A stretch of DNA of 47,010 nucleotides from a virus, in IMG/VR virus record IMGVR_UViG_3300009285_002757, positions 1-47,010 of that record; one strand, given 5' to 3'. Shown one piece after another: positions 12,952 through 37,421 of this stretch. How positions within the stretch are numbered: the stretch's first letter is position 1; each line of letters starts with the position of its first letter. Position numbers and translations under genes: made by a program. The notes under the pieces are model-generated. The model worked only from the letters and a program-made list of their open reading frames with translations, was not told where the DNA came from and made no database searches.

Positions 12952-13185
12952 ATGACATCAGAAGAGCATAAAGAACGCCATGTAATACTCCATCAAATGC
13001 TGGATGAATTGGTGGCCGACTTCATTAGACACACAGAAAAACGGCCGAGCAAAACCAGTTTGTTTGAATTTATGCAGTGGTCGAACCAGCAAACAATAAA
13101 TCCCACGGAGTATAGCTGGTATTGCCCTTTGTGTGGTCAACAAAACATTGATGGCAAACCCTGTGGTTGTGGAGCAAGGCGATGA
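12952..13185 (+). CDS. C-terminal zinc-ribbon protein, 77 aa
   Basis: Helical N-terminal part, then WYCPLCGQQN and CGCG at the very C-terminus, which together provide a four-Cys zinc ribbon. ATGA overlap with the next gene. Possibly a nucleic-acid-binding or transcription-modulating protein; not recognised. Confidence 0.75.
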   Translation: MTSEEHKERHVILHQMLDELVADFIRHTEKRPSKTSLFEFMQWSNQQTINPTEYSWYCPLCGQQNIDGKPCGCGARR

Positions 13186-13703
13186 AGCTGAAACTAAAAA
13201 GCAAACCCCGACTGAACTTCAAAAGTAAAAATGAAGAAGGCACAATTAAACCTTTTGGGGAAAAAGTAACCTTCAACGCTGTAGTCAATCACCAAGGAGG
13301 ACAAACCCTGATCCCTATAACGGGTTGTCTGGTACATAGCAAGCGGATTAAGAATGTCCGTTTTGTGATTCATCGGTATTTCCACCTTAACAAAGATCGT
13401 AGTGTTGTGTTTGATACTCGCTGGGCGGTCAGTGAACTGACTTCGGGACATTCCATCTGGTATCCTGGAATAGTAGCACACGCTCTCCAAAGTCTTATGC
13501 ACCCGCTGTCACGAGAAGATGTAGTAAATATTGCTGAGGACAGGTGCCTGGAATTTGGGGAGGAGGTGTTCTGGCGGGAAATGCGCAATGCAGCCCAGGA
13601 AAAAGCACTGTTGGAACTAGGGACGCCAGAAAAACCGAAGCTGCATTTCAAACCCAGGTTCAAAGCCAAGCGGAAGTTCGGACTCAATTTGAAACGGAGG
13701 TAG
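13182..13703 (+). CDS. Unknown protein tagged at both termini, 173 aa
   Basis: The start at ATGAAGCTGAAACTAAA overlaps the previous stop. The N-terminus reads KLKLKSKPRLNFKSK and the C-terminus holds PKLHFKPRFKAKRKF then LNLKRR, so the recurrent [K/R]L-x-[F/L]-K motif appears at both ends. The core (about 25-145) is an alpha/beta domain with no catalytic signature I recognise. The tag pattern, shared with RecA, clamp loader and methyltransferases of this phage, predicts attachment to the replication assembly. Confidence 0.75.
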   Translation: MKLKLKSKPRLNFKSKNEEGTIKPFGEKVTFNAVVNHQGGQTLIPITGCLVHSKRIKNVRFVIHRYFHLNKDRSVVFDTRWAVSELTSGHSIWYPGIVAHALQSLMHPLSREDVVNIAEDRCLEFGEEVFWREMRNAAQEKALLELGTPEKPKLHFKPRFKAKRKFGLNLKRR

Positions 13704-14670: not shown

Positions 14671-15182
14671 GTGAAATAACTGATCTGGTATCAAAAGCAG
14701 CAAAGCTGGATACCACAAATCTTGAATCCCTGATTAAGCACCTTCAGGCTTTGCAGGGAACAGGAGAAGTTGTAACCACAAGAAGCACACATCAAGCCGA
14801 GGAACTGTATCAATGCCTGGAACGTGCGGCAATGTCGCAGCGACGGACTAAGCTACAGCATATATCCGTACTGAAAAAGTCTCCACGTTGGGCAGCCTTT
14901 ACCCGAGTCGCGGCGGATGTGGATGCTTTTGTCTCTGATCTGGAAAAGGATCGGGTCAAGAAACTAGCGGCAACCCAATACTGCTGCGACCTCCTAATTA
15001 ACCATCTAATTAAAAATGGGATGCGGTTGGAAATCCCTGGTATCATTTGGGGACTGGACAATCTGACGGATATCATTGACCAGCACTTCCCTGGATACTT
15101 GGCTTCTGGATTGATGGGGAAGGTGCTGGAAACACTCTATAGTAGAGGTAAAAGCAAACTTCGCTTTTCCCGTAAGTCATAA
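14667..15182 (+). CDS. Helical protein with C-terminal KLRF tag, 171 aa
   Basis: Almost fully helical, soluble, with the final residues SKLRFSRKS matching the tag seen on replication proteins. It lies immediately upstream of the DnaB-like helicase, where phages often encode a helicase loader or a replication accessory protein, but no AAA+ or other loader motif is visible. Role in replication is inferred from position and tag only. Confidence 0.7.
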   Translation: MSEITDLVSKAAKLDTTNLESLIKHLQALQGTGEVVTTRSTHQAEELYQCLERAAMSQRRTKLQHISVLKKSPRWAAFTRVAADVDAFVSDLEKDRVKKLAATQYCCDLLINHLIKNGMRLEIPGIIWGLDNLTDIIDQHFPGYLASGLMGKVLETLYSRGKSKLRFSRKS

Positions 15183-19185: not shown

Positions 19186-20175
19186 ATGAGATTTGACTGG
19201 GCTAGGTTTGTAAAAGAACGCGCCATTCCTTATGTAACCCAAGGACCAAACACGGCAAGAAATAATTGGAGTATAAAATGCCCGTGGTGTGGAACAGCAG
19301 ATAATAGCCAACATATGGGACTGTCTCTAAATGTGAATGACCCCACCTTTGGCTGCTGGAGAAACCAGAAACATCGTGGGCGTGATCCAGCATTTCTGAT
19401 TGCCAAACTGCTGGTAATTACACCAGCACAGGCAGAACGAATTGTAACGGCCCAAGGGCAGAACCCAGATGACTTTGAAAGCACTTTAGCCTCTTTGCAG
19501 GCACCCCCTGCCCAGGAAGTGAGACAGCCAAAAAGAACGTTGCTATACCCAAAGGAATTCCGTGAGTTTAGGTTCCCGCAGACTTTCAATACCCAAAACT
19601 ATTTCACGGATTACCTTTATAGCCGTGGTTTTCCAAACATGAAAGAGGTAATACAGCATTTCAAACTGCGCTGGGCTATTACAGGAGAGTATAAACACAG
19701 AATAATAATACCTGTAATAGAGGAAGGTACCCTATGTACTTGGACAGCACGTGCGATCAATAAAACAGCTAATGTCAGGTACAGGTCGCTTGAGGCAGAT
19801 CGGTCCATAATCAATATCAAGGACAGCTTGCTGTATGTTCCATGGCGACCCGCCAAGAGACTGATCATCACGGAAGGCCCGTTTGATGCTATCAAGCTTG
19901 AAACTTATGGGGTGGGCGTAAATGCGACATGCATTTTTGGTCTGACCATGTCGGAACAACAAATGGTGAAATTGTCAAGGTTAGCTCAAAATTATTTGCA
20001 GGTGGTTGTAATGCTGGACTCGACAGCCCGAGCAGAAGGTGATAGAATGGTTTCTCAATTGATTGAACTCACAGGGAAGAGGATCATTCATGCACGGCTA
20101 CCGGCTGGGGTCAGTGACCCCGGCATTCTTTCTGCACGTCAGGTCCAGGAAGTTACGGCTAAATTGGGAGGGTAA
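19186..20175 (+). CDS. DNA primase (zinc-binding plus Toprim)
   Basis: Synthesises RNA primers for lagging-strand replication. Zinc site Cys32, Cys35, Cys57, His63 (CPWCG then CWRNQKH). Toprim domain: ITEGPFDAIK with catalytic Glu230, then VVVMLDSTAR with Asp278; the usual DxD reads DST, so only the first Asp is kept. The 329 aa are shorter than bacterial DnaG because there is no C-terminal helicase-binding domain. Genes for helicase (15204) and clamp (21694) flank it. Confidence 0.85.
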   Translation: MRFDWARFVKERAIPYVTQGPNTARNNWSIKCPWCGTADNSQHMGLSLNVNDPTFGCWRNQKHRGRDPAFLIAKLLVITPAQAERIVTAQGQNPDDFESTLASLQAPPAQEVRQPKRTLLYPKEFREFRFPQTFNTQNYFTDYLYSRGFPNMKEVIQHFKLRWAITGEYKHRIIIPVIEEGTLCTWTARAINKTANVRYRSLEADRSIINIKDSLLYVPWRPAKRLIITEGPFDAIKLETYGVGVNATCIFGLTMSEQQMVKLSRLAQNYLQVVVMLDSTARAEGDRMVSQLIELTGKRIIHARLPAGVSDPGILSARQVQEVTAKLGG

Positions 20176-20571
20176 ATGACGGCAGCAACAGTAATTGACT
20201 GGGTTCAGAAAGGGACGCATGGTACCCTGCTTGGTAATTATGATGTCTCGGAAATATTTGGTGAGGGCGCTTTTGCCGAGGTGTACTGGATTTTCAACGA
20301 TGAATTCGTTGGAGTGATATACCCCGATAAGGCACGGATGGCGTCCTGCCTAATTCACAAAATGGATAGAGATATACAGCATCGTTTCAACGAAATGGTT
20401 AAAACCATAAAACCACCTGTTGGAAAATTACGATTCAAAGCAAAGCAAGGACCAGAACAGAGTAGCCCTGGTGGTAAGCCGAGGCTGCACCTGAAATCCC
20501 GGCTTTCGTCGCAGCCAAAGCCAGGAATAGTAAAACCCCGGCTGCATTTGAAACCTAAGCTGAAGAGGTAA
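20176..20571 (+). CDS. Small protein with three copies of the terminal tag
   Basis: 131 aa. Residues about 1-75 form a small domain (GTLLGNYDVSEIFGEG...). The remaining 50 residues are a disordered-looking tail carrying GKLRFKAK, PRLHLKSRL and PRLHLKPKLKR, separated by Ser/Pro/Gly linkers. Starts directly after the primase stop. Multivalent tags suggest a scaffold that bridges several copies of a common partner, for instance the sliding clamp or DNA; this is inference. Family of the N-terminal domain not recognised. Confidence 0.75.
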   Translation: MTAATVIDWVQKGTHGTLLGNYDVSEIFGEGAFAEVYWIFNDEFVGVIYPDKARMASCLIHKMDRDIQHRFNEMVKTIKPPVGKLRFKAKQGPEQSSPGGKPRLHLKSRLSSQPKPGIVKPRLHLKPKLKR

Positions 20572-21693: not shown

Positions 21694-22773
21694 ATGAAAG
21701 TCAATTCTTCGGAACTGAAAATCCTGCTAGAACTGCTAGCTCCCTGCCTGGCATCCAGCAACTTCCTGCCAATACTTAGCATGGTCTGCTTTGACACGAA
21801 AGGCGTGTATGCCTTCAACGATCTTGTTGGCACAGACTTCCCATGGGAACACGGTCTACCTCCTGTGGCTGTCGATGGCAAAGCTCTATTAAGCTTTCTG
21901 TCCAAATTGAAAGATCAGGAACTAACACTTGACAGTACCACTTCCGGCAAATTGAAAATTACCGGAAAAGGTATAGAAGCTTCCCTCCCCACCATGGGGC
22001 CGGATGATTTCATCTTCAAGCGCCCTGCTGCCAAAGGGCTTGCAGCAACCATATCTGGTGTTAATGTCCTACAGCGTTTGGCGGAAGCCATTGATGTAGC
22101 AGCAACCTCCTCGGTATCTTCGGTGTATAAGAACGTAACCCTTGGTACACAGAAGGGAAGTAGCCTGTTTGCTTACGCTACGGATGGCCCCGCTTTAACC
22201 CATGCCAGAATTGGTTCCTTGAATGAAAAATTGGATCAGGAGCGCACCTGGATTGTGCCAAAATTGGCTATGGAACAAATTATTGCGGCAGGGAAAGCAG
22301 GGAACGATCCTATTGCAATAAACCTTTCCCTTGCGGATGACGCTTTGGTTATGGACAATAAGGACACTGTGGTATATAGCAAGATACTACAGGGAAATGC
22401 ACCTGATTTTGTCAAGGCTGTATCGGAAACGCCCGTTTGTACCATAGCAGATTGGGCCAAGGATGATCTGCTTACTGCCTTGGAAACAGCGGAGGTAATC
22501 TGTGACTCCTTTCTTAGCACCTGTCATGTTGGCATTGAAAAACAGACTGTAACCATACATGCCAGGGATGGCAAAGGGGAATTCAAAACGACCATAAAAG
22601 TACCTGTTGATCCGCCTGACACCAACTTTCAGTTCTCCATCAATCCTGCTCAGGTTATCCGAGCATTCAAATTCAAGGAAATTGCTGGCCCACTTGAGAT
22701 TACTAATAGGTACCTTGCCTTTGGCACGAAGGCTGAATTTTTGTATGCGGTAACCTTCAGCCGCAAAACCTGA
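21694..22773 (+). CDS. DNA polymerase sliding clamp, DnaN-like
   Basis: 359 aa, close to the length of bacterial beta clamps, with the three-domain repeat pattern of strands and helices (domains at about 1-115, 120-240, 245-359). Begins MKVNSSELKILLELLAPC and contains a typical PDxF-like GNAPDFVKAV segment in domain 2. It encircles DNA and tethers the polymerase at 23480; the matching loader is at 27567. Being bacterial in type, it would be expected to bind short QLxLF-like peptides, which is relevant to the recurrent tag found here. Ribosome site AAAAGGAATACC. Confidence 0.82.
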   Translation: MKVNSSELKILLELLAPCLASSNFLPILSMVCFDTKGVYAFNDLVGTDFPWEHGLPPVAVDGKALLSFLSKLKDQELTLDSTTSGKLKITGKGIEASLPTMGPDDFIFKRPAAKGLAATISGVNVLQRLAEAIDVAATSSVSSVYKNVTLGTQKGSSLFAYATDGPALTHARIGSLNEKLDQERTWIVPKLAMEQIIAAGKAGNDPIAINLSLADDALVMDNKDTVVYSKILQGNAPDFVKAVSETPVCTIADWAKDDLLTALETAEVICDSFLSTCHVGIEKQTVTIHARDGKGEFKTTIKVPVDPPDTNFQFSINPAQVIRAFKFKEIAGPLEITNRYLAFGTKAEFLYAVTFSRKT

Positions 22774-22916
22774 TGCCACTTAAATTCAAAAAGGTACCGT
22801 GGAAACGAAAAGAGGTAATTGGGGATGCTGTCCTGTATCTGGGGGATTGCCTCGAAATACTGCCGACGCTGCCGAAGGTGGATGCGGTGATTACTGACCC
22901 CAAATATGGCATTGGA
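22773..22916 (+). repeat. 5' methyltransferase repeat, copy 1 (copy 2 at 25968-26111)
   Basis: The first 50 bases of the two methyltransferase genes differ at one position, and the encoded 48 residues at three. Together with the 3' pair (23289-23479 and 26484-26674) these direct repeats bracket the polymerase gene. Confidence 0.85.
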
Positions 22917-23480
22917 TTTAAGTATGAAAACGACACTGATACTTTGGAGGATTGGTGTGTATTGATGAATGCTGCCGTACCACTTTGCAAAGCCATTGCA
23001 CCCTTCGTGATTATGCCTAGTTGTGCAATTAAACGCATTGAGTGGTGGTACGCAAATCATAAACCCGAATGGCTTGTGGCTTGGCATAAAGGAAGCCCTG
23101 GTCACATGGCCACTATTGGATTTAACGATTGGGAACCTCATGTGTGTTGGGGTAGACCAACACACCCAATGCACGATCATTTTTCTACTCCCTGTGGATT
23201 CGAGGAAAACGGCCATCCTTGCCCAAAGCCAATCAGCTATTCAATATGGTTAGTTGAGCGTGGTGCAGTGGTAGGACAGACGGTTTGCGACCCCTTCATG
23301 GGCAGTGGCACAACTGGCGTCGCCTGCATGAACCTTGGCCGAAAGTTCATCGGCATTGAAATCGAGCCCAAATACTTTGATATTGCTTGTGAACGCATCA
23401 GAAAAGCTGCTGAAGCACCACCTGATTTCTTTTTACAACAGAAACCAAAACCTATAAAACTTTCATTTTGGAAAAAGTAA
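22773..23480 (+). CDS. DNA methyltransferase paralogue 1 (DPKY motif)
   Basis: 235-aa beta-class N6-adenine/N4-cytosine methyltransferase fold: motif IV first (TDPKYG, 43-46) and SAM-binding motif I late (DPFMGSGTTG, 173-182). The catalytic DPPY is altered to DPKY, so activity is doubtful. Its first 48 and last 63 residues match the gene at 25968 at 45 and 58 positions, while the target-recognition centre is unrelated. It begins with a basic tag (MPLKFKKVPWKRK) and ends with KLSFWKK. TGATG overlap with the clamp gene. Confidence 0.85.
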   Translation: MPLKFKKVPWKRKEVIGDAVLYLGDCLEILPTLPKVDAVITDPKYGIGFKYENDTDTLEDWCVLMNAAVPLCKAIAPFVIMPSCAIKRIEWWYANHKPEWLVAWHKGSPGHMATIGFNDWEPHVCWGRPTHPMHDHFSTPCGFEENGHPCPKPISYSIWLVERGAVVGQTVCDPFMGSGTTGVACMNLGRKFIGIEIEPKYFDIACERIRKAAEAPPDFFLQQKPKPIKLSFWKK

Positions 23481-25978
23481 TGTCCTTCTCACAATACACA
23501 CCCTTTTTCCGGGTGCAGCCGGAAAGCAAGAAACAGCTAAGCCTGCCACTGGAAAGCATCTCTAAACTAGGGTGTAATGCCTGCACCCTGAATAAAATCA
23601 CACTGATCCACCCAAAAATGGATGCCACAGGTGATACCGACCCCCTGTTCTACTTTTTTGCGGAAGCACCAGGTTCCACTGAAGATGAACTTGGGGAACA
23701 GCTTATTGGTGAGTCTGGACAGATGATTCGTACTCGAATACCCTCAAAATGGAAAAAAAGAATACGTTGGAATAACACCGCAAACTGCCGTCCTCCATTG
23801 AATCGTGATCCCTCTCCACTGGAACTGGCCTGTTGCCGTCCCCGAATGGAAAAGGATATCATGGAGGCGAAGCCCGCCGTCGTTGTTGGCTTTGGCCGTT
23901 TCGCGCTGCAATGGGTGACTGGTGAAACCACCATGCACTTGTGGCGTGGCCGCAGGCTGGTACAACAACTGCATGGACACCCTTTCTGGTTCTATCCTAT
24001 TACTCACCCATCAGCTATCCTCCATTCTGGAGGATACCACACCAACAATCTTGATCTGCCGGTATTTGCCAATGATTTAAAACGAGTATTCCAAGAAGTG
24101 GAAGAATTGGATGACCCTGTAGTAATAACACCTGAACAGATGCAGAAAAACATTCGCTGTCTTAGTGGTAATGCAAAAGACTGGCCCGATATAATCAAGG
24201 ATTTCTGCCGCAAGAACAAGAAAGGCATTGGCTATGATATCGAGACCAACAACTTGCGCCCTTACCCGAATGAAGCGGCGATCCTGTCTGTTGCGTTGGC
24301 CACGACTGATAATGGTATTACCTTCCCAATTGCACACCCGGAGGCACGCCTTAAACCTGAAACACAGATGGCATTGCTTGCGGCAGTCCGGGATGAATTA
24401 CCAGGGATAGACTGGGTTGCTGCACACAATGCAGCCTTTGAACAGGAATGGGGTCTGAAATTCCTTGGCATGGAATCCACCAAGGCAACGAAATGGAAAG
24501 ATACCCAGGCGCAGGCGTTCACTTTGGATGAACGGCAAAAGATGCATAGCCTTGATACCATTTCTTTTATCCACTTGGGCTTGCGAATAAAGGAATTGCA
24601 TGATGTGGATGTGGAGCATCTTGACCAAGAACCTCTAGTTAAAGTATTACCATATAATGCTGGTGATAGCCGCGCCTGTGCTTTTCTTTACCCCATTCTT
24701 GCCGCAGAAATTGAACATCAAGGAATGGTTGGTATTAGTGATATGCATCAGCGACGATCTCTGACTATGGCAAGACTGAAGTATCGTGGAGTGGTTCCAG
24801 ACATTGTTGAAGCCAAGCGTCTGGATAAAGAGGTAGAGAATAAGGTCAACCTGGTTTTGAATGATATTGCTGAACACACAAAAGGGCATATCCGCAGACA
24901 TGGCAGGTTCAATCCCAACACGGCAGCGGATGTAAAGCGATGGTTCCTTGAGGAAATGCACCAAGACCTGCCAAGTACCGGCGAGGAATATTTATCACTG
25001 TCACCACACCCATTCGCTCAAGCTGTTCTTGATTACCGGACACTGACAAAGCTTCGTAGCACCTATCTAGCCAAAATCATTAGTGGTGAGCATATCTGGC
25101 CGGATGGACGCTTGCATAGCCTTTACTCACAACTTCGTGCCCGTAGTGGCCGTCTAGCTTCCAGCGAACCAAACCTGCAAAATATACCAAAGAGAGGCCA
25201 CAAGGAGATTCGGGGCGTAATAGGCGTCCCAAAAGGGTGTGTCCTGGCGTCATTTGACTATGGACAGATTGAAGCACGTGTTATTGCCATGGCTAGTAAG
25301 GATAAGTTCCTATGCAAAGCCTTGTGGGATGGGTATGATATTCACGCACACTGGACGGAACGCTTGGCCAAGGCGGATAAGAGGTGGGGGAAAGGTGCTG
25401 GCGATAAAAAGGTTTTCAAGCTATTGCGGGATCATGTCAAGAATGAATGGACCTTCCCTGCATTCTTTGGAGCGCAACTTGGTGCAGTTGCCAGTTATCT
25501 TGGCATTGATGATCGGACCCTGGAACCTCTATACATAGAATTTTGGGAACAGTTTGCTGGTGTAAAGCAGTGGCAGGAAAAAGTCTTATCATTTTACAAC
25601 ACCAACCTTTATGTAGAGATGCTGACTGGCAGGCGGCGGCATGGTCCATTGACTGCAAACCAGTTATTTAATACCCCCATTCAAGGACCGGCGTCTGATA
25701 TTGTGGTGGATGCCATGGAACGGTTGGACGATCTGTCAGATGAGCATGAGAAGCCTTGGTTAGCCCCAGTTATGAATGTGCATGATGACTTGGACTTTTA
25801 TCTGCCGGAAGAAACCAGTAAGCTTGAGGATGCCTGCGAACTAATAGGAAAAACTATGTGTATGACACCGTTTGACTTCGTTAATGTACCAATAACGGTG
25901 GAACTGGCAATTAGCGACAAATCCTTTGCTAAGGTAGAGGCCATTCATACCTTCAAATCAACAGATTATGCCACTTAA
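23480..25978 (+). CDS. Family A DNA polymerase with N-terminal UDG-like domain
   Basis: 832 aa from the TAATG overlap at 23480. Domain 1 (about 25-190) resembles family 4/5 uracil-DNA glycosylases: Cys32/Cys35, AEAPG (61-65) with TED, Cys103, Cys118/119 (a likely FeS set) and ITHPSAIL (174-181). Domain 2 (about 245-415) is a 3'-5' exonuclease: YDIET (Asp253, Glu255), AHNAAF and YNAGD (Asp396). Domain 3 is the polymerase: SGRLASSEPNLQNIP, motif A DYGQIE (Asp593), motif B R650...K654 with FFGA, motif C VHDD (767-770). All catalytic acidic residues are present. KQLSLPLES near residue 18 resembles a bacterial clamp-binding peptide. Probably the main replicase. Confidence 0.93.
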   Translation: MSFSQYTPFFRVQPESKKQLSLPLESISKLGCNACTLNKITLIHPKMDATGDTDPLFYFFAEAPGSTEDELGEQLIGESGQMIRTRIPSKWKKRIRWNNTANCRPPLNRDPSPLELACCRPRMEKDIMEAKPAVVVGFGRFALQWVTGETTMHLWRGRRLVQQLHGHPFWFYPITHPSAILHSGGYHTNNLDLPVFANDLKRVFQEVEELDDPVVITPEQMQKNIRCLSGNAKDWPDIIKDFCRKNKKGIGYDIETNNLRPYPNEAAILSVALATTDNGITFPIAHPEARLKPETQMALLAAVRDELPGIDWVAAHNAAFEQEWGLKFLGMESTKATKWKDTQAQAFTLDERQKMHSLDTISFIHLGLRIKELHDVDVEHLDQEPLVKVLPYNAGDSRACAFLYPILAAEIEHQGMVGISDMHQRRSLTMARLKYRGVVPDIVEAKRLDKEVENKVNLVLNDIAEHTKGHIRRHGRFNPNTAADVKRWFLEEMHQDLPSTGEEYLSLSPHPFAQAVLDYRTLTKLRSTYLAKIISGEHIWPDGRLHSLYSQLRARSGRLASSEPNLQNIPKRGHKEIRGVIGVPKGCVLASFDYGQIEARVIAMASKDKFLCKALWDGYDIHAHWTERLAKADKRWGKGAGDKKVFKLLRDHVKNEWTFPAFFGAQLGAVASYLGIDDRTLEPLYIEFWEQFAGVKQWQEKVLSFYNTNLYVEMLTGRRRHGPLTANQLFNTPIQGPASDIVVDAMERLDDLSDEHEKPWLAPVMNVHDDLDFYLPEETSKLEDACELIGKTMCMTPFDFVNVPITVELAISDKSFAKVEAIHTFKSTDYAT

Positions 25979-26696
25979 ATTCAAAAAGGTACCGTGGAAA
26001 CGGAAAGAGGTAATTGGTGATGCTACGCTGTACTTGGGTGATTGTCTGGAAATATTACCGACGCTGCCGAAGGTGGACGCTCTCATTACCGACCCGCCGT
26101 ATGGAATTGGACGCGACGGTCAGGCGCGCAGCACGGGCGGGCACGGTGGGCACAAGGAATACGAATTCATGGGATGGGATGCCGTGCGCCCAAGTGCCGA
26201 TTGTTTCCGTCTAATGCTATCTGCCGCTGATTATTATATTGTGTGGGGAGGGCAATACTTCGCGGATTTGCTTCCCGTCCATTCGCAATGGTTGGTATGG
26301 GATAAAGGACAGCGTATTAATCAATCCGACGGTGAACTGGCGTGGACTTCCCGCGATGGTGCTTTGCGAATCTATACACAAAACCGCGTTGCACTGATGC
26401 AGGATGGCGCGGAGCATCCAACGCAAAAGCCGATTGTGCTAATGCAGTGGTGTCTCGGTTTCGTTGAGTCCGAAAATATTCTCGACCCCTTCATGGGTAG
26501 TGGCACAACTGGTGTAGCCTGCATAAGCCTCGGCAGGAAATTCATTGGTATTGAAATAGAACCCAAATATTTCGACATCGCCTGTGAGCGCATCAGAAAA
26601 GCTGCTATGGCACCCCCTGATTTCTTTTTACAACAGAAACCAAAACCCACAAAACTTTCTTTTTGGAAAAATGGTGAAACTAAACCTAAAAAATAA
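25968..26696 (+). CDS. DNA methyltransferase paralogue 2 (DPPY motif)
   Basis: 242-aa beta-class adenine/cytosine amino-methyltransferase with intact DPPYG (43-47) and DPFMGSGTTG (173-182). Same N- and C-terminal shells as the gene at 22773, but the centre (about 49-170) is different and GC-richer, with WGGQYF and EHPTQKP elements typical of active enzymes. It likely methylates a specific site to protect phage DNA. The start overlaps the polymerase end by 11 bases; tags MPLKFKK and KLSFWKN at the ends. Confidence 0.88.
   Translation: MPLKFKKVPWKRKEVIGDATLYLGDCLEILPTLPKVDALITDPPYGIGRDGQARSTGGHGGHKEYEFMGWDAVRPSADCFRLMLSAADYYIVWGGQYFADLLPVHSQWLVWDKGQRINQSDGELAWTSRDGALRIYTQNRVALMQDGAEHPTQKPIVLMQWCLGFVESENILDPFMGSGTTGVACISLGRKFIGIEIEPKYFDIACERIRKAAMAPPDFFLQQKPKPTKLSFWKNGETKPKK
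26484..26674 (+). repeat. 3' methyltransferase repeat, copy 2 (copy 1 at 23289-23479)
   Basis: Codes for the SAM-binding motif, the C-terminal helices and the KLSFWK tag shared by both methyltransferases (58 of 63 residues identical). It forms the second half of the direct-repeat bracket around the polymerase gene. Confidence 0.8.
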
Positions 26697-27252
26697 AAAG
26701 TATAGTGTAATCTATGCTGATCCACCCTGGTTCTACTCTTACGATCATCATCGAGGGTATCCATTGCTGAAAACAGAACAGCTTGCCAAACTGTCTGTTC
26801 CAAGCATCACGGCACCTGATGCTACTTTATTCCTGTGGGCAACCTTTCCCTGTCTGCCGGATGCTTTCGTGGTCATGAAAGCCTGGGGATTTTTCTATAA
26901 AACCATAGGATTTGTCTGGATAAAAACCAACAAACGGCAGGATTTGAACCACCCAAACTTCTTCCAAACCCCGTTAGATGTGGCCACCAATATCGGGAAT
27001 TACACAGTGCCTAATGCAGAGATTTGCCTACTTGGGATCAAGGGCAAACCTGTGCATGAATATGGTATAGAAAGTGTAGTGTTTGCCCCTCGATTATGGC
27101 ACAGCAAAAAGCCGGATGAAATCAGGAATCGAATTGCGAAATATTGCAGGGGTGCTCCCAAAATTGAACTCTTCGCCAGAGATAAGTTACCTGGTTGGGA
27201 TTCCTGGGGTAACCAAACGAAATCCGATGTGGAACTGAGGTTCAAAACATGA
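26671..27252 (+). CDS. MT-A70 family adenine methyltransferase
   Basis: 193 aa. DPPW (17-20) within IYADPPW, a LFLWATFPCLPDAFVVMKAWGF-like centre and AEICLLGIKG identify the MT-A70 N6-adenine methyltransferases. Start placed at the ATG giving MVKLNLKNKK, inside the end of the previous methyltransferase; the open frame reaches further up but that part is out-of-frame copy of the upstream gene. N-terminal KLNLK and C-terminal ELRFKT both fit the recurrent tag. It would modify GATC-like or other adenine sites; specificity unknown. Confidence 0.88.
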   Translation: MVKLNLKNKKYSVIYADPPWFYSYDHHRGYPLLKTEQLAKLSVPSITAPDATLFLWATFPCLPDAFVVMKAWGFFYKTIGFVWIKTNKRQDLNHPNFFQTPLDVATNIGNYTVPNAEICLLGIKGKPVHEYGIESVVFAPRLWHSKKPDEIRNRIAKYCRGAPKIELFARDKLPGWDSWGNQTKSDVELRFKT

Positions 27253-27566: not shown

Positions 27567-28529
27567 ATGAAATTGAAATTGGCAACTAAAGAGCCTGTCA
27601 TAGCAACCGGCCCACTGCATACAAGGCTGCGCCCTAGCACACTAGACAAGATACTAGGGCAAGAGGCCGTGGTGAAGGCCCTGAAGCGCCTGGAGGGCAA
27701 GGAAACGCCGCCAGCATTCCTGTTCATCGGCCCGCCAGGAGTAGGTAAAACCACATTGGCACGGATCATTTTCAAGGGCTTCGATCTCATTGAAGTGGAC
27801 GGTGCTACCCAAACTGGCATTGATGCCATGCGGGAATTGGTTACTGTAGTACAGAACCCATCCTGGGATTCAAATACTAAGCAGCGTGGTGTCATTGTAG
27901 ATGAGGCGCACGGCCTGTCAAAAGCCACATGGACAAGTCTACTCAAAATAATTGAAGAACCACCAGCGCATTTACACTGGGCCTTCTGCACTACAGAACC
28001 TGCTAAAGTCCCGGAAACGATCAAGACCCGCTGTATGTCTTTCACACTTAAGGAGGTACCCTGGGATATTATTGCGGAGTATCTACGCAAAGTGGCTGCA
28101 CAAGAAAGGTTGGAGATACAGGAAGACCTACTTGGCTTGGTAGCAAGACGCGCTAATGGCAGCGTCAGGCAGGCACTGATCTATCTTAGCTTGCTTGATG
28201 GTGTAGATTCCAAAGATGAAGCCTCATCTTTGATTCAGGCAGCGGAAGAAAAGAAGGGTGTCATTGACCTGGTTCGTTACCTGGCCTTCGACCGCAACCC
28301 ACAATGGAGTGAAGCACAGAAAATGCTGGCACAAATGAAGGTGGATGATGTAGAACCAGAAAGTGCTAGGATTGTCATCGCCAACTATCTCGCTGTGGCA
28401 TTACTTGATCCAAAGACCCAACCGAAGACCAAACGACTACTGGAAGTGCTGGATGCCTTTTCTCACACTTTTAACCAGTCGGAGCAATTTGCCCCGCTGA
28501 TTTTAGCTGTAGCATCAATCGTTTCCTGA
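27567..28529 (+). CDS. Clamp loader ATPase, DnaX-like
   Basis: 320-aa AAA+ clamp-loader subunit: RPSTLDKILGQ, Walker A GPPGVGKT (55-62), Walker B VDEAH (111-115), and sensor/arginine-finger TRC (154-156, the SRC-like motif). It opens and loads the DnaN-like clamp at 21694. The zinc module of bacterial DnaX is missing, and no separate delta/delta' genes are evident, so it may form a homomeric-type or host-assisted loader. N-terminus MKLKLATK fits the recurrent tag. Confidence 0.9.
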   Translation: MKLKLATKEPVIATGPLHTRLRPSTLDKILGQEAVVKALKRLEGKETPPAFLFIGPPGVGKTTLARIIFKGFDLIEVDGATQTGIDAMRELVTVVQNPSWDSNTKQRGVIVDEAHGLSKATWTSLLKIIEEPPAHLHWAFCTTEPAKVPETIKTRCMSFTLKEVPWDIIAEYLRKVAAQERLEIQEDLLGLVARRANGSVRQALIYLSLLDGVDSKDEASSLIQAAEEKKGVIDLVRYLAFDRNPQWSEAQKMLAQMKVDDVEPESARIVIANYLAVALLDPKTQPKTKRLLEVLDAFSHTFNQSEQFAPLILAVASIVS

Positions 28530-29166: not shown

Positions 29167-30414
29167 ATGGCACTCTTGAAGAAAAAAGCACCTGAGAAAA
29201 GGTTTCAGTATAAACCCCTGACTACCGAATTTATGGAGACCAGAAAGAATCAGCGTGGTGGGGATTCTGATGGGTTCGTCTCGCCTACTGTAAAAGTGTT
29301 CTCGCCTGCTGATGGTGACAATACCGTTCGCATCCTTCCGGCCTTTGGTATTGATAGTTCCTATGGGTATGAAATCTTTGCTCATTATGGCATTGGGTCG
29401 GATAACTCCGCCTACCTCTGCCTCAAAGCAATGAAGGATGAACCTGATCCGGTTTGCGAAGAAAAAGAACGGGCCATGAAAGCAGGAGATGATGAATACG
29501 CCAAGGCGCTGCGTTCCAACAAGCGTATTGCAGTATATGTAATCGACCGTGCTAAAGAGGGTGATGGGCCGAAACTTTGGTTCATGCCCTACACATTGGA
29601 ACGGGAAATGGCGGCTCAGGCTATGGATAAGAAGTCCGGCAAGGTCATTCAGTTCATTGATCCCGATGAGGGCTATGATTTCAACTTCACCAAGCAGGGC
29701 AAGCAACTAACCACCAAGTACATCGGTGCTGCTTTTGACCGTGAACCCTCACCATTGTCTGATGATTCAGACACTGCTGCGGCATGGTTATCCTTCGTAG
29801 AAGATAACCCCATTCCGGGGCAACTGGTCTACCATGACTACGACCACATTGCGAAGCAATTCTCGGGGGCTGCCAAAGACGCAGCAAGTGAGAGTGGAAC
29901 CAAGAAAGGGAAATTCTCCAAGAAAGCCGCCGAAGTTGAATCGGGAGTAAAGGTTTCTGTAACATGGCAAGAGGTACAGGAAGCTGATGAAGATGAAATC
30001 ATCAGGATTGCCAAGAAACATGGCCTTAATGAAATGGAGGAAACCGTTAATACTCTGGAGGAGGCCCAAGCCTATGTATGTGAACACCTTGGACTGACAG
30101 AGCCGAAAATTGAAGGAGGCAAGAAACCATTCAAAGCGAAGCTGAAATTGGGTGGAAAGAAAGAGACTGCCGAGGAACCTGTTGAGGAAGAGACTGCGGA
30201 AGAGCTTCCCACATGGGATGAAGTACATGCTATGGAAGATGAAGCCCTGGTTGAGTTTGGTAATGCACATGAAGTGGACATGACGCAGGAATTCATCGAC
30301 CTGGAAGATGCGCAGAACAAAGTCTGCGAAGCACTGGACATTGAGCAGGTTGAGAAGAAACCTTTGAAGCTTGGTGGCAAGCTATCAAAATTAAGGGCAA
30401 AAAGCAGCAAGTAA
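29167..30414 (+). CDS. Single-stranded DNA-binding protein, gp32-like
   Basis: 415 aa from the ATG preceded by TTTGAAAGGATTGACACA; an earlier in-frame start at 29140 lies upstream of that site. Residues about 40-230 match the phage gp32-type OB domain (NTVRILPAF, YLCL, DPVCEEKERAMKAGDDEYAKALR, LWFMPYTL). The C-terminal part repeats a roughly 45-residue unit twice (SVTWQEVQEADEDE..., LPTWDEVHAMEDEA...), followed by basic KAKLKLGGKK and KPLKLGGKLSKLRAKSSK. Unusually, the very C-terminus is basic, unlike the acidic tails of most SSBs. A terminator follows. Confidence 0.8.
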   Translation: MALLKKKAPEKRFQYKPLTTEFMETRKNQRGGDSDGFVSPTVKVFSPADGDNTVRILPAFGIDSSYGYEIFAHYGIGSDNSAYLCLKAMKDEPDPVCEEKERAMKAGDDEYAKALRSNKRIAVYVIDRAKEGDGPKLWFMPYTLEREMAAQAMDKKSGKVIQFIDPDEGYDFNFTKQGKQLTTKYIGAAFDREPSPLSDDSDTAAAWLSFVEDNPIPGQLVYHDYDHIAKQFSGAAKDAASESGTKKGKFSKKAAEVESGVKVSVTWQEVQEADEDEIIRIAKKHGLNEMEETVNTLEEAQAYVCEHLGLTEPKIEGGKKPFKAKLKLGGKKETAEEPVEEETAEELPTWDEVHAMEDEALVEFGNAHEVDMTQEFIDLEDAQNKVCEALDIEQVEKKPLKLGGKLSKLRAKSSK

Positions 30415-30503: not shown

Positions 30504-31556
30504 ATGAAATTCGAGTCTAAACGCCCAAAGCTGAACTTAAAAACCAAGAAGCAGGAGGACTCTGATGATGGTGGCTCTTACTTTATTTCCAACCGCGATG
30601 TGGAATTCCTGTCAAGTGGCTGTACTACTCTTGACTGTGTTTTAGGTGGTGGATGGGCATTTGGTAGAATCAATAATATCGTCGGGGACAGGTCCACGGG
30701 CAAAACGTTGGTTTCTATTGAAGCTTGCTGCAATTTAGTTAACCTCTTCCCTTCTAGGGGTGTCATTCGCTTTGTAGAGCCAGAAGCCGCTTTTGATACC
30801 AGCTATGCTGCTGCTTTAGGTCTTCCTGTGGAAAGGATTTCTTTCAGCAGCCCTCAAGAAATAAATACCGTGGAAGACCTTGCTACTGATTTGGATAAAT
30901 TTATCGACAGCCTGGGTACGGATGAACCTGGGTTATACATTTTAGACTCGTTGGATGCCTTATCCAGCAAGGCAGAGCTAGAACGCAAAATCACGGATGC
31001 CAGCTATGGTGATGGCAAAGCCAAAAAAATGTCGGAGATGTTCCGCCGTCTGAACAAACGCATCAAAGGTAAACGAATGATCCTGCAAATAATCTCACAG
31101 ACCCGAGACAATATTGGGGTCACTTTTGGGGAGAAACATACCCGTAGTGGCGGCAAAGCACTGGACTTTTATGCCAGTCAAATATTATGGTTGTCCCAAA
31201 CTGGTGTGATAAAGCAAGTCCGCAATAAGGTGGAACGGGTTGTAGGCGTGTCCATTCGAGCCAGATGCAAGAAGAGCAAGGTGGGCCTACCCTACCGGGA
31301 ATGTGCTTTTGATATCAAGTTTGGCTTTGGTATTGATGACATTGCTGCCAACATTAAATACCTGGCTGCGGTAGGTAAGTTAGGAATGCTTCAAGCAGGA
31401 CTTGGTCCTGATGCGGTTAACCGCTTTATCGCGGTGATAGAGGGACAAAATCCTGATGCTATTAAGGTTTGGCAGCATAAAATAAATACCACAGTAAAGC
31501 AAGCCTGGGGCATTGTAGAACAAAGCTTCCTACCCACCAGAAAGAAATACGGGTGA
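30504..31556 (+). CDS. RecA/UvsX-family recombinase
   Basis: 350 aa, single RecA core: Walker A GDRSTGKT (61-68), YILDSLDALS Walker B, and IISQTRDNIG with a conserved Gln (the L1/L2 sensing element). Catalyses strand exchange for recombination-dependent replication and repair. The N-terminus has RPKLNLKTKK, the recurrent tag, before the core begins at about residue 30; the C-terminal region is a short helical extension. The ATG follows AAAGGGATTGT. Confidence 0.9.
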   Translation: MKFESKRPKLNLKTKKQEDSDDGGSYFISNRDVEFLSSGCTTLDCVLGGGWAFGRINNIVGDRSTGKTLVSIEACCNLVNLFPSRGVIRFVEPEAAFDTSYAAALGLPVERISFSSPQEINTVEDLATDLDKFIDSLGTDEPGLYILDSLDALSSKAELERKITDASYGDGKAKKMSEMFRRLNKRIKGKRMILQIISQTRDNIGVTFGEKHTRSGGKALDFYASQILWLSQTGVIKQVRNKVERVVGVSIRARCKKSKVGLPYRECAFDIKFGFGIDDIAANIKYLAAVGKLGMLQAGLGPDAVNRFIAVIEGQNPDAIKVWQHKINTTVKQAWGIVEQSFLPTRKKYG

Positions 31557-31960: not shown

Positions 31961-32496
31961 TGCGCGATGGAGGAGGTAAGCAGAAAGGGGCGGTTTTTGA
32001 AAGAGAAATCTGCAAAGACCTATCTTTGTGGATCAGTAAAGGGCAGTACGAGGACGTTTTCTGGAGAAGTTCGATTAGTGGTGGCAGAGCCACGATTCTA
32101 CAGAAAAAAGGACGTAGGGCAGATGCACAAATGGGGGATATAACTGCCATTCGACCCATTGGAAGAAGGTTACTTAACCATTTTGTGGTTGAAGCCAAAT
32201 TTTACCGAGATTTGATGATGTGGGGGTTACTGAAGGGTGACACCAAAACAGGCATCTGTGCTTTCTGGAATAAATTGAAAACTGATTTATTTCTGGACGG
32301 CAGACACCCCATGCTAATAGCACGGCAGAACCAACAATCGCCTTATGTCTTACTGGATGAATTTGGTATTAAATTCTTCAGCTTACGAGCTTCTGCACAC
32401 TACCCACCACTAGGAGCCCACTTTGTTTGGTTTGACAATTTCATAGCTGAAGCAGCAGTGCCTCCACAAAAACTTAATTTCAGGAGTCAACCATGA
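31960..32496 (+). CDS. PD-(D/E)XK nuclease, resolvase-like
   Basis: 178 aa. Glu14 in GAVFEREI, Asp60 in GDITAI and the pair Glu78-x-Lys80 in FVVEAKFY make a PD-(D/E)XK site. The architecture resembles archaeal/phage Holliday-junction resolvase-like nucleases, but the exact subfamily is unsure; a restriction-type nuclease is the alternative. It sits in the recombination block behind RecA. The C-terminus PPQKLNFRSQP is the recurrent tag. Confidence 0.75.
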   Translation: MRDGGGKQKGAVFEREICKDLSLWISKGQYEDVFWRSSISGGRATILQKKGRRADAQMGDITAIRPIGRRLLNHFVVEAKFYRDLMMWGLLKGDTKTGICAFWNKLKTDLFLDGRHPMLIARQNQQSPYVLLDEFGIKFFSLRASAHYPPLGAHFVWFDNFIAEAAVPPQKLNFRSQP

Positions 32497-36360: not shown

Positions 36361-37421
36361 TGAGCACCTGGATAATTTGTTCTGATCTTCACCTCACTTC
36401 AGAAGCCGTGGATGAATATCGCTGGGGGGTGTTCCCTTTCCTGACAGAGAAAATCCAGGAGCTAAGTGCTGGTGCAAAAACCTTATTCATACTTGGTGAT
36501 CTGGCGCAACAGAAGGATTATCTCACAGCAAAACTGGTCAATCGGCTTGTTTGGGCTCTGGTAAATCTTTATCGGTCAACAGGTCTGCATAAAATCATCA
36601 TCCTGCGAGGAAACCATGATGGTGTTGATGGTAAAGTGGCTTTCTTTGAATTCTTGAACACCTTGGCCTTCATAAAAGTCGTCACTGTGCCGGAAATCAC
36701 ATCACTGGACCTTCGCAGAATTGCCCTGCTGCCACATACCAAGACTCCAAGCGCGGATTGGGCTGCCCTGGACTTTGCCAAATGCAAATATATCTTCATG
36801 CACGCTACAGCGCCTGGTGCTATAGCTGAGAGTGGTACTGTATTAGAAGGCGACAAGGAAATAGCTTTTCTAAAAGATGTCAGCTACCAAGCCAGGATAC
36901 TTTCCGGTGATGTTCACGTACCACAACGCATCGGTAAAATAGAATACATTGGTGCTCCTTATCCAATTCGCTTTGGGGATGATTTTGAAGGAAGGATTCT
37001 GGTTCTACAAGGAATGAAGGAACTGGAATGGCACTATCCTACCATCCGCAAAGTCATGGCCCGAATCAGAACAGGAGAAGACCTCAATAAATACCATCTG
37101 CGTCCGAAAGACCAGGTCAATGTGATCATCCAATTGAAACCGGAAGAAGGGCATCTATGGATACCCTATAAGGAAGCTGCCTTGGCATGGTTTTCCGCCA
37201 GGAAAATTGAAGTAGTGAGTATCGGCCTGGAATACCCAAAACTGAAGTTGCGGTTGAAAGGTCAATCAACAAGTCCTGATCTGGCCGCTTTGAAACACCA
37301 ACAAAATCCCATGGTTTCTTTGGAGAAGTACTGTCAAAAAGGGCAGGTAGTTGAGGAAACAGCCGAAACAGGCAAGTTCTTATTGAAAAAGGCTACAACC
37401 CGACTGCGCTTTAGGCGCTAG
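36360..37421 (+). CDS. SbcD/Mre11-like nuclease
   Basis: 353-aa calcineurin-like metallophosphoesterase: SDLHL (8-12), FILGDLAQQKD (around 44-54), LRGNHDG (around 82-88), FMHAT and SGDVHVPQ (the GHxH site, here GDVH). With the SbcC-like partner at 37515 it would trim double-strand ends and hairpins for recombination. Last residues KKATTRLRFRR match the recurrent tag. TAATG overlap with the gene before. Confidence 0.9.
   Translation: MSTWIICSDLHLTSEAVDEYRWGVFPFLTEKIQELSAGAKTLFILGDLAQQKDYLTAKLVNRLVWALVNLYRSTGLHKIIILRGNHDGVDGKVAFFEFLNTLAFIKVVTVPEITSLDLRRIALLPHTKTPSADWAALDFAKCKYIFMHATAPGAIAESGTVLEGDKEIAFLKDVSYQARILSGDVHVPQRIGKIEYIGAPYPIRFGDDFEGRILVLQGMKELEWHYPTIRKVMARIRTGEDLNKYHLRPKDQVNVIIQLKPEEGHLWIPYKEAALAWFSARKIEVVSIGLEYPKLKLRLKGQSTSPDLAALKHQQNPMVSLEKYCQKGQVVEETAETGKFLLKKATTRLRFRR

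Follow-up and report, generated by a model that had tools for sequence, protein, structure and literature searches.

The window analyzed here, a complete IMG/VR virus record of 47,010 bp, contains a replication module in which a DnaB-like helicase, an SNF2-like helicase, and a DnaG-like primase are followed by an open reading frame (ORF) of 131 amino acids and then by a 200-aa E/K-rich protein, a DnaN-like sliding clamp, and methyltransferases. The module also encodes a family-A DNA polymerase (PolA) with a UDG-like N-terminal domain, a clamp loader, a gp32-like single-stranded DNA-binding protein (SSB), a RecA/UvsX-like recombinase, a RusA/PDDEXK-like nuclease, and SbcD/SbcC. The TAA stop codon of the primase abuts the ATG of the 131-aa ORF with zero gap, and the ORF that was originally predicted to lie directly behind the primase, with a small domain and a tail bearing three tags, is confirmed at exactly these positions and on this strand. 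The features of this region are as follows.

19186..20175, + strand: DnaG-like primase, immediately upstream of the 131-aa ORF (phrog_47, E = 8e-30; Toprim matches)
20166..20171, + strand: GGGAGG, likely ribosome-binding site inside the primase 3' end
20176..20571, + strand: 131-aa post-primase putative adaptor protein (ORF coordinates exact; homologues)
20176..20415, + strand: small N-terminal alpha+beta domain, residues 1 to 80 (AlphaFold2, low confidence; homologue matches)
20416..20568, + strand: disordered basic tail, residues 81 to 131, net charge +14 over 51 residues (AlphaFold2; charge count)
20425..20439, + strand: tag 1, KLRFK
20476..20496, + strand: tag 2, KPRLHLK
20533..20553, + strand: tag 3, KPRLHLK

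No model in Pfam, PHROG, or NCBIfam significantly matches the 131-aa protein or its relatives, and our literature searches found no description of this family or of the tag. Residues 1 to 80 have a net charge of -3. AlphaFold2 models the predicted small domain as an alpha-beta-beta-beta-beta-alpha unit spanning residues 3 to 77, with coil from residue 78, but at low confidence (mean pLDDT of 56). The model of a relative from locus L021 shows the same order of elements (H-E-E-E-E-H and then coil; N-domain pLDDT of 83 to 92), noting that the alignment behind the window model included rows from the distant group to which this relative belongs. Foldseek and VIA-align return only weak and scattered resemblances to SH3/Tudor-, PH-like, or polo-box-like arrangements for both models (best Z of 4.0 to 4.3; every Foldseek E of >0.2), and these matches were rejected as unusable. 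Purifying selection acts on domain and tail alike, being strong in the domain (dN/dS of 0.07 to 0.33) and weaker, but present, in the tail (0.2 to 0.56).

The tags follow the pattern [KR]-x-[KR]-[LVI]-x-[LFVI], which we treat as the signature of a proposed docking peptide. Tags 2 and 3 are identical as peptides and differ synonymously at 5 of 7 codons, so that it is the peptide and not the DNA that has been kept, and KPRLHLK looks maintained by selection rather than recently duplicated. Among shuffled window tails, a fraction of 0.0001 contain an exact 7-residue repeat and 4.5% contain at least two strict tags.

Relatives of the protein behind the primase

Querying phages, viral contigs, and genome contigs directly with the 131-aa sequence found nothing; relatives were recovered by gene order, primase scans, primase searches in contigs encoding the SSB, and a DnaB scan. 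The last of these yielded four close relatives (L114:12029-12316, L102:9866-10231, L099:6822-7322, and L100:14139-14624), the nearest being that of L114, which matches the window protein with a phmmer E value of 5.2e-6 over the full length and 9.6e-5 over the domain only. A profile built from the four close N-terminal domains retrieves the window protein as the sole match among 563 window ORFs (3.4e-4, the next being 0.84). The tails of these relatives end in KPKLKLRLRRATEAPKPKLKLRRRP (L114), ...ARPRLKLKAKR (L102), and KTKPKIASKPASRFIPKIKG... (L100).

A more distant group occupies the same gene position in L007, L012, L013, L015, L017, L020, L021, L070 to L073, L098, Edwardsiella phage vB_EpM_ZHS, and 40 Vibrio phage records (MAR10 and 39 others); in ZHS and Vibrio phage KF4, it was by gene order that a protein of like build was found behind the primase. 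Tails in this group carry two to four Arg-rich tags each (e.g., RKRTRVAVEDE and RRSRVQLV). ZHS_70 and its counterparts in the MAR10/KF4 group resemble the window protein in gene position, in their small alpha+beta domain, and in their multi-tag tail, but differ in their Arg-rich dialect and acidic linkers, and a profile of the distant family does not match the window protein significantly (HMM E = 1.5; hhalign probability of 3%). A tag matrix derived from the distant relatives likewise failed to separate the window tail from shuffled versions of it (P = 0.54), so the link between their tags and those of the window rests on pattern, position, and alignment. With the window left out, the tails of the family contain 17 tags against 3.0 +/- 1.7 in shuffled tails, a count reached in 0 of 2,000 shuffles.

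As judged from its post-primase position in a phage with PolA, a DnaN-like clamp, and a gp32-like SSB, from its homologous N-terminal domain, and from its at least two tail tags, the 131-aa protein is a member of a real, unnamed family. The original prediction had proposed a search for homologues and a comparison of their tag numbers; the homologues share the gene position, and their tails carry two to four tags. A conserved fold with an unconserved tail, the pattern named in advance as contrary, is not what we find, as the homologues retain multi-tag tails. The family is missing behind the primase in L006, L010, L011, L019, and other relatives, and it is therefore accessory, rather than core or essential, to such replisomes.

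Two observations concern neighboring genes. The 171-aa post-primase gene of KF4 (L003:9094-9609) is unannotated, and its 3' half overlaps an annotated sigma-like gene. Many relatives encode a sigma-factor-like protein behind the primase (L040:39-584, L075:2544-3173, L083:2568-3164, L101:12933-13409, and L102:10228-10698), often with a tag at its start (e.g., MNRAKLKFRPQF and MRPKLKSARARLAYHP); a search of the window ORFs turned up no counterpart.

Tags and dialects across replication proteins

Tags and tag-like peptides also occur at or near the ends of other window proteins, as follows.

13203..13223, + strand: KPRLNFK, near the N terminus of a 173-aa protein
13632..13700, + strand: KPKLHFKPRFKAKRKFGLNLKRR, multi-tag C terminus of the 173-aa protein
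15156..15176, + strand: KLRFSRK, C terminus of a 171-aa protein before DnaB
23457..23477, + strand: KLSFWKK, C terminus of a DNA methyltransferase
26652..26669, + strand: KLSFWK, near the C terminus of a second DNA methyltransferase
27567..27590, + strand: MKLKLATK, tag-like N terminus of the clamp-loader ATPase (weak across relatives)
30519..30542, + strand: KRPKLNLK, N terminus of the RecA/UvsX-like recombinase (alignment with L026 and L027)
32470..32484, + strand: KLNFR, near the C terminus of the RusA/PDDEXK-like nuclease
37398..37418, + strand: TRLRFRR, tag-like C terminus of the SbcD-like nuclease (end not conserved in relatives)

The last 18 residues of the window genes hold 5 strict tags, where shuffles give 1.8 (5 being reached in 9 of 500) and the internal rate predicts 0.8, and the tag that was first noticed as recurrent is, in this window, real. 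Across all relatives, the excess of terminal tags is mostly a matter of basic composition (17 against 14.6 in shuffles at C termini and 16 against 12.0 at N termini), so the case rests on specific protein families and on the dialects described below. A strict tag is present in 8 of 27 N-terminal extensions of the relatives' RecA proteins, compared with 2.0 in shuffles (0 of 2,000). In the RecA alignment, KRPKLNLK of the window falls on KGRPRIKLR of L026 and KGRTRIRLR of L027, which ties the Lys-rich window tag to the Arg-rich forms. In relatives, the tag is found as well on RusA/RuvC C termini, on some PolA termini, and on some methyltransferase N termini; the L025 orthologue of the RusA/PDDEXK-like nuclease ends in KRISIRPAPNR. 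The last residues of the window SSB, KLSKLRAKSSK, were considered as a tag and rejected, since they belong to a different motif that is conserved in SSBs only.

The 173-aa protein (13182-13703) is tagged at its N terminus (KLKLKSKPRLNFK) as well as its C terminus (KPKLHFKPRFKAKRKFGLNLKRR) and may be another multi-tag adaptor; none of the fetched loci yielded a homologue. The methyltransferase region comprises genes at 22773-23480, 25968-26696, and 26584-27252. Two of the methyltransferases are near-identical over their first and last ~20 residues and differ in the middle, and the frame of the third gene begins inside the 3' end of the second; this sharing of ends and the overlap suggest DNA-level duplication or recombination.

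The form of the tag varies from genome to genome, and within a genome it tends to be held in common by unrelated proteins, as in the following dialects.

(i) In G028, the dialect is KP[KR]IK, seen in RecA (MAKPKIKG), the nuclease (...KRSKPRIK), and the putative adaptor (KPKI/FIPKIK).

(ii) In G030, it is RP[KR][LI], seen in methyltransferases (MTRPKLHV and MAMRPRLNN), RecA (MMARPKIG), and the putative adaptor (RPRLKLK).

(iii) In G027, it is LKL[KR], seen in PolA (MIKLKQP), in a terminus reading MTLKLKKP, in the SSB (MALKLRKTK), and twice in the putative adaptor (KPKLKLR).

Not every genome tags every protein, the RusA C terminus being without a tag in both G027 and G030. Overall, tag-bearing termini are more alike within than between genomes (permutation P of 0.0002 for the tag-rich set and 0.004 for all eight), in a comparison for which G027, G028, G030, and G031 were fetched after the idea had formed and the choice of protein families was in part guided by tags already seen in them. 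In composition-preserving shuffles, 0 of 400 reach the within-genome dialect difference. When each family is permuted against the other core tags, the adaptor tail (P = 0.002), RecA (P = 0.0017), and RusA/RuvC (P = 0.015) covary, whereas the DnaB N terminus, taken as a control, does not (P = 0.74), and the covariation of SSB termini is not significant (P of 0.16 for the N terminus in 3 genomes and 0.064 for the C-terminal end). Because the dialects change in concert across unrelated proteins, the most economical explanation is one shared receptor coevolving with them, and these patterns suggest that the tags form a shared docking system.

A putative adaptor, its candidate receptors, and known docking systems

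We propose that the 131-aa protein is a replisome adaptor whose flexible multi-tag tail docks a common, coevolving receptor, a reading that we regard as evenly poised between right and wrong. Its small folded domain would be held at the primase or helicase, as the fixed gene position implies, while the tail displays several copies of the docking peptide. The same-dialect peptide at the ends of RecA, RusA or RuvC, and methyltransferases, and in some phages of the polymerase and SSB, would allow all tagged proteins to plug into one phage receptor that evolves together with the peptide; with several tags, one adaptor could hold several receptor molecules and so tie the primosome to a receptor-coated fork, and proteins with a single tag would come and go. 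The multivalent bridging hub of the original prediction is, in this respect, a reasonable and better-supported inference, favored by the conserved multi-tag tails and by dialect-matched tags on DNA-metabolism proteins; the clamp as its partner (the tag lacks the QL[SD]LF consensus), a hold on several clamp subunits, and the nucleation of a condensate are not supported.

Two proteins of the window are the candidate receptors.

29167..30414, + strand: gp32-like SSB, candidate receptor (net charge -21; Pfam PF08804, 1.3e-7)
21694..22773, + strand: DnaN-like sliding clamp, alternative candidate receptor

The tag-bearing proteins are mostly basic. Clear acidity, among the replisome proteins tested, is confined to SSB (-21), PolA (-8), and the clamp (-5), an order in which net charge points to SSB first. 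Our best guess for the receptor is the gp32-like SSB, for which the T4 motif described below sets a precedent and which might bind the tag through its core or through its acidic C-terminal mini-domains. The C terminus of the window SSB consists of two tandem acidic mini-domains of ~45 residues, each followed by a basic stretch, for which no Pfam family was matched; the SSBs of relatives have one copy of the mini-domain, often with long alternating basic and acidic blocks, and nearly all terminate in a short L-x-x-L/M-R-x-R/K motif.

Alternatively, the tags could be the phage's own clamp-binding motif, in which case the tail would bind two or three subunits of the DnaN-like ring as a clamp tool belt or a clamp-primase tether. 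The clamp is encoded near the adaptor gene, the tagged nucleases, methyltransferases, RecA, and some PolAs are typical clamp recruits, the PolA of L026, L027, and L031 itself ends in a tag, and the bacterial clamp-binding consensus, QL(S/D)LF (PMC9690074), contains an L-x-L/F portion similar to the [LVI]-x-[LF] core of the tag. However, neither KLRFK nor KPRLHLK has the Gln or the terminal aromatic pair of that consensus; the window PolA (23480-25978) already has a classic-looking clamp motif, QLSLPL, just before its UDG-like N-terminal domain and bears no tag; and most relatives' PolAs have an N-terminal M[SG]FF instead, also without a tag. On balance, we consider clamp binding unlikely, if well short of negligible.

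Basic tails are common on DNA-binding enzymes, and the tail, with its net charge of +14, might simply hold the primase complex on DNA or RNA nonspecifically, the other tags being ordinary basic ends of enzymes that are mostly basic and DNA binding. Such a role is at odds with a residue order conserved beyond composition (the 0 of 2,000 family tails above), with within-genome dialects that exceed composition (0 of 400), and with the ZHS-type tags, which are broken by acidic EDE linkers that would not help plain DNA binding, and it is in our view distinctly unlikely. Dialects could also arise if the tag bound a host protein that varies with the host of each phage: the phages that differ in dialect probably differ in host as well, and a shared host factor would force the same change on all tags. 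But the tag is seen only on DNA-metabolism proteins (the window being without structural genes for comparison), and the metagenomic contigs compared carry no host assignment, which leaves this explanation very improbable. Least probable of all, and scarcely credible as the main role, is a multivalent sticker that condenses with SSB and DNA into a phage replication compartment, as repeated tags and the alternating basic and acidic blocks of relatives' SSB tails (e.g., KPSRSRRSRRDEDEDED) might suggest, since the window SSB is without long block repeats, three tags amount to low valency, and condensation would add to specific docking rather than replace it.

More broadly, and more tentatively than for the adaptor itself, this lineage may use a single, fast-drifting docking code, with one receptor, many clients bearing terminal tags, and a multi-tag adaptor cross-linking receptors, the code drifting in concert and remaining private to each phage; we lean toward doubting this in its full form. 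Peptides by which DNA enzymes dock on an SSB or a clamp are already known; what would be new, if true, is a code rewritten in concert across unrelated proteins in each phage and repeated on an adaptor. Such a code would illustrate the coevolution of replisome hubs with their clients, and the tag of the post-primase protein, when sought on other termini, would find replication clients in uncharacterized phages.

Three known systems offer comparisons. In T4, the basic N-terminal LAST motif of gp32 (Lys-Arg-Lys-Ser-Thr) docks on the core of the neighboring molecule (PMC12893549). Like it, the tag is short, basic, and terminal and is borne by phage replication proteins, in a phage whose SSB is gp32-like, and with SSB as the receptor the tag would be the heterotypic counterpart of the motif that links gp32 molecules. 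The tag nevertheless requires aliphatic or aromatic residues and has no LAST-type basic run followed by Ser/Thr, and it occurs on many proteins, is repeated on the adaptor, and varies in dialect between phages. The clamp motif QL(S/D)LF is similarly a short terminal motif spread across DNA-metabolism proteins of unrelated origin, with one residue between its hydrophobic positions, and differs from the tag in its Gln and terminal aromatic pair, in that the tag has strongly basic flanks, and in that the phage PolA has its separate QLSLPL. Finally, the C-terminal peptide of Escherichia coli SSB (SSB-Ct) makes one replisome component a hub that docks many partners through a short peptide (PMC10164576), a logic that the proposed phage system would share but invert: the E. 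coli SSB carries the peptide itself, whereas in the phage the clients carry it and the socket would belong to the hub.
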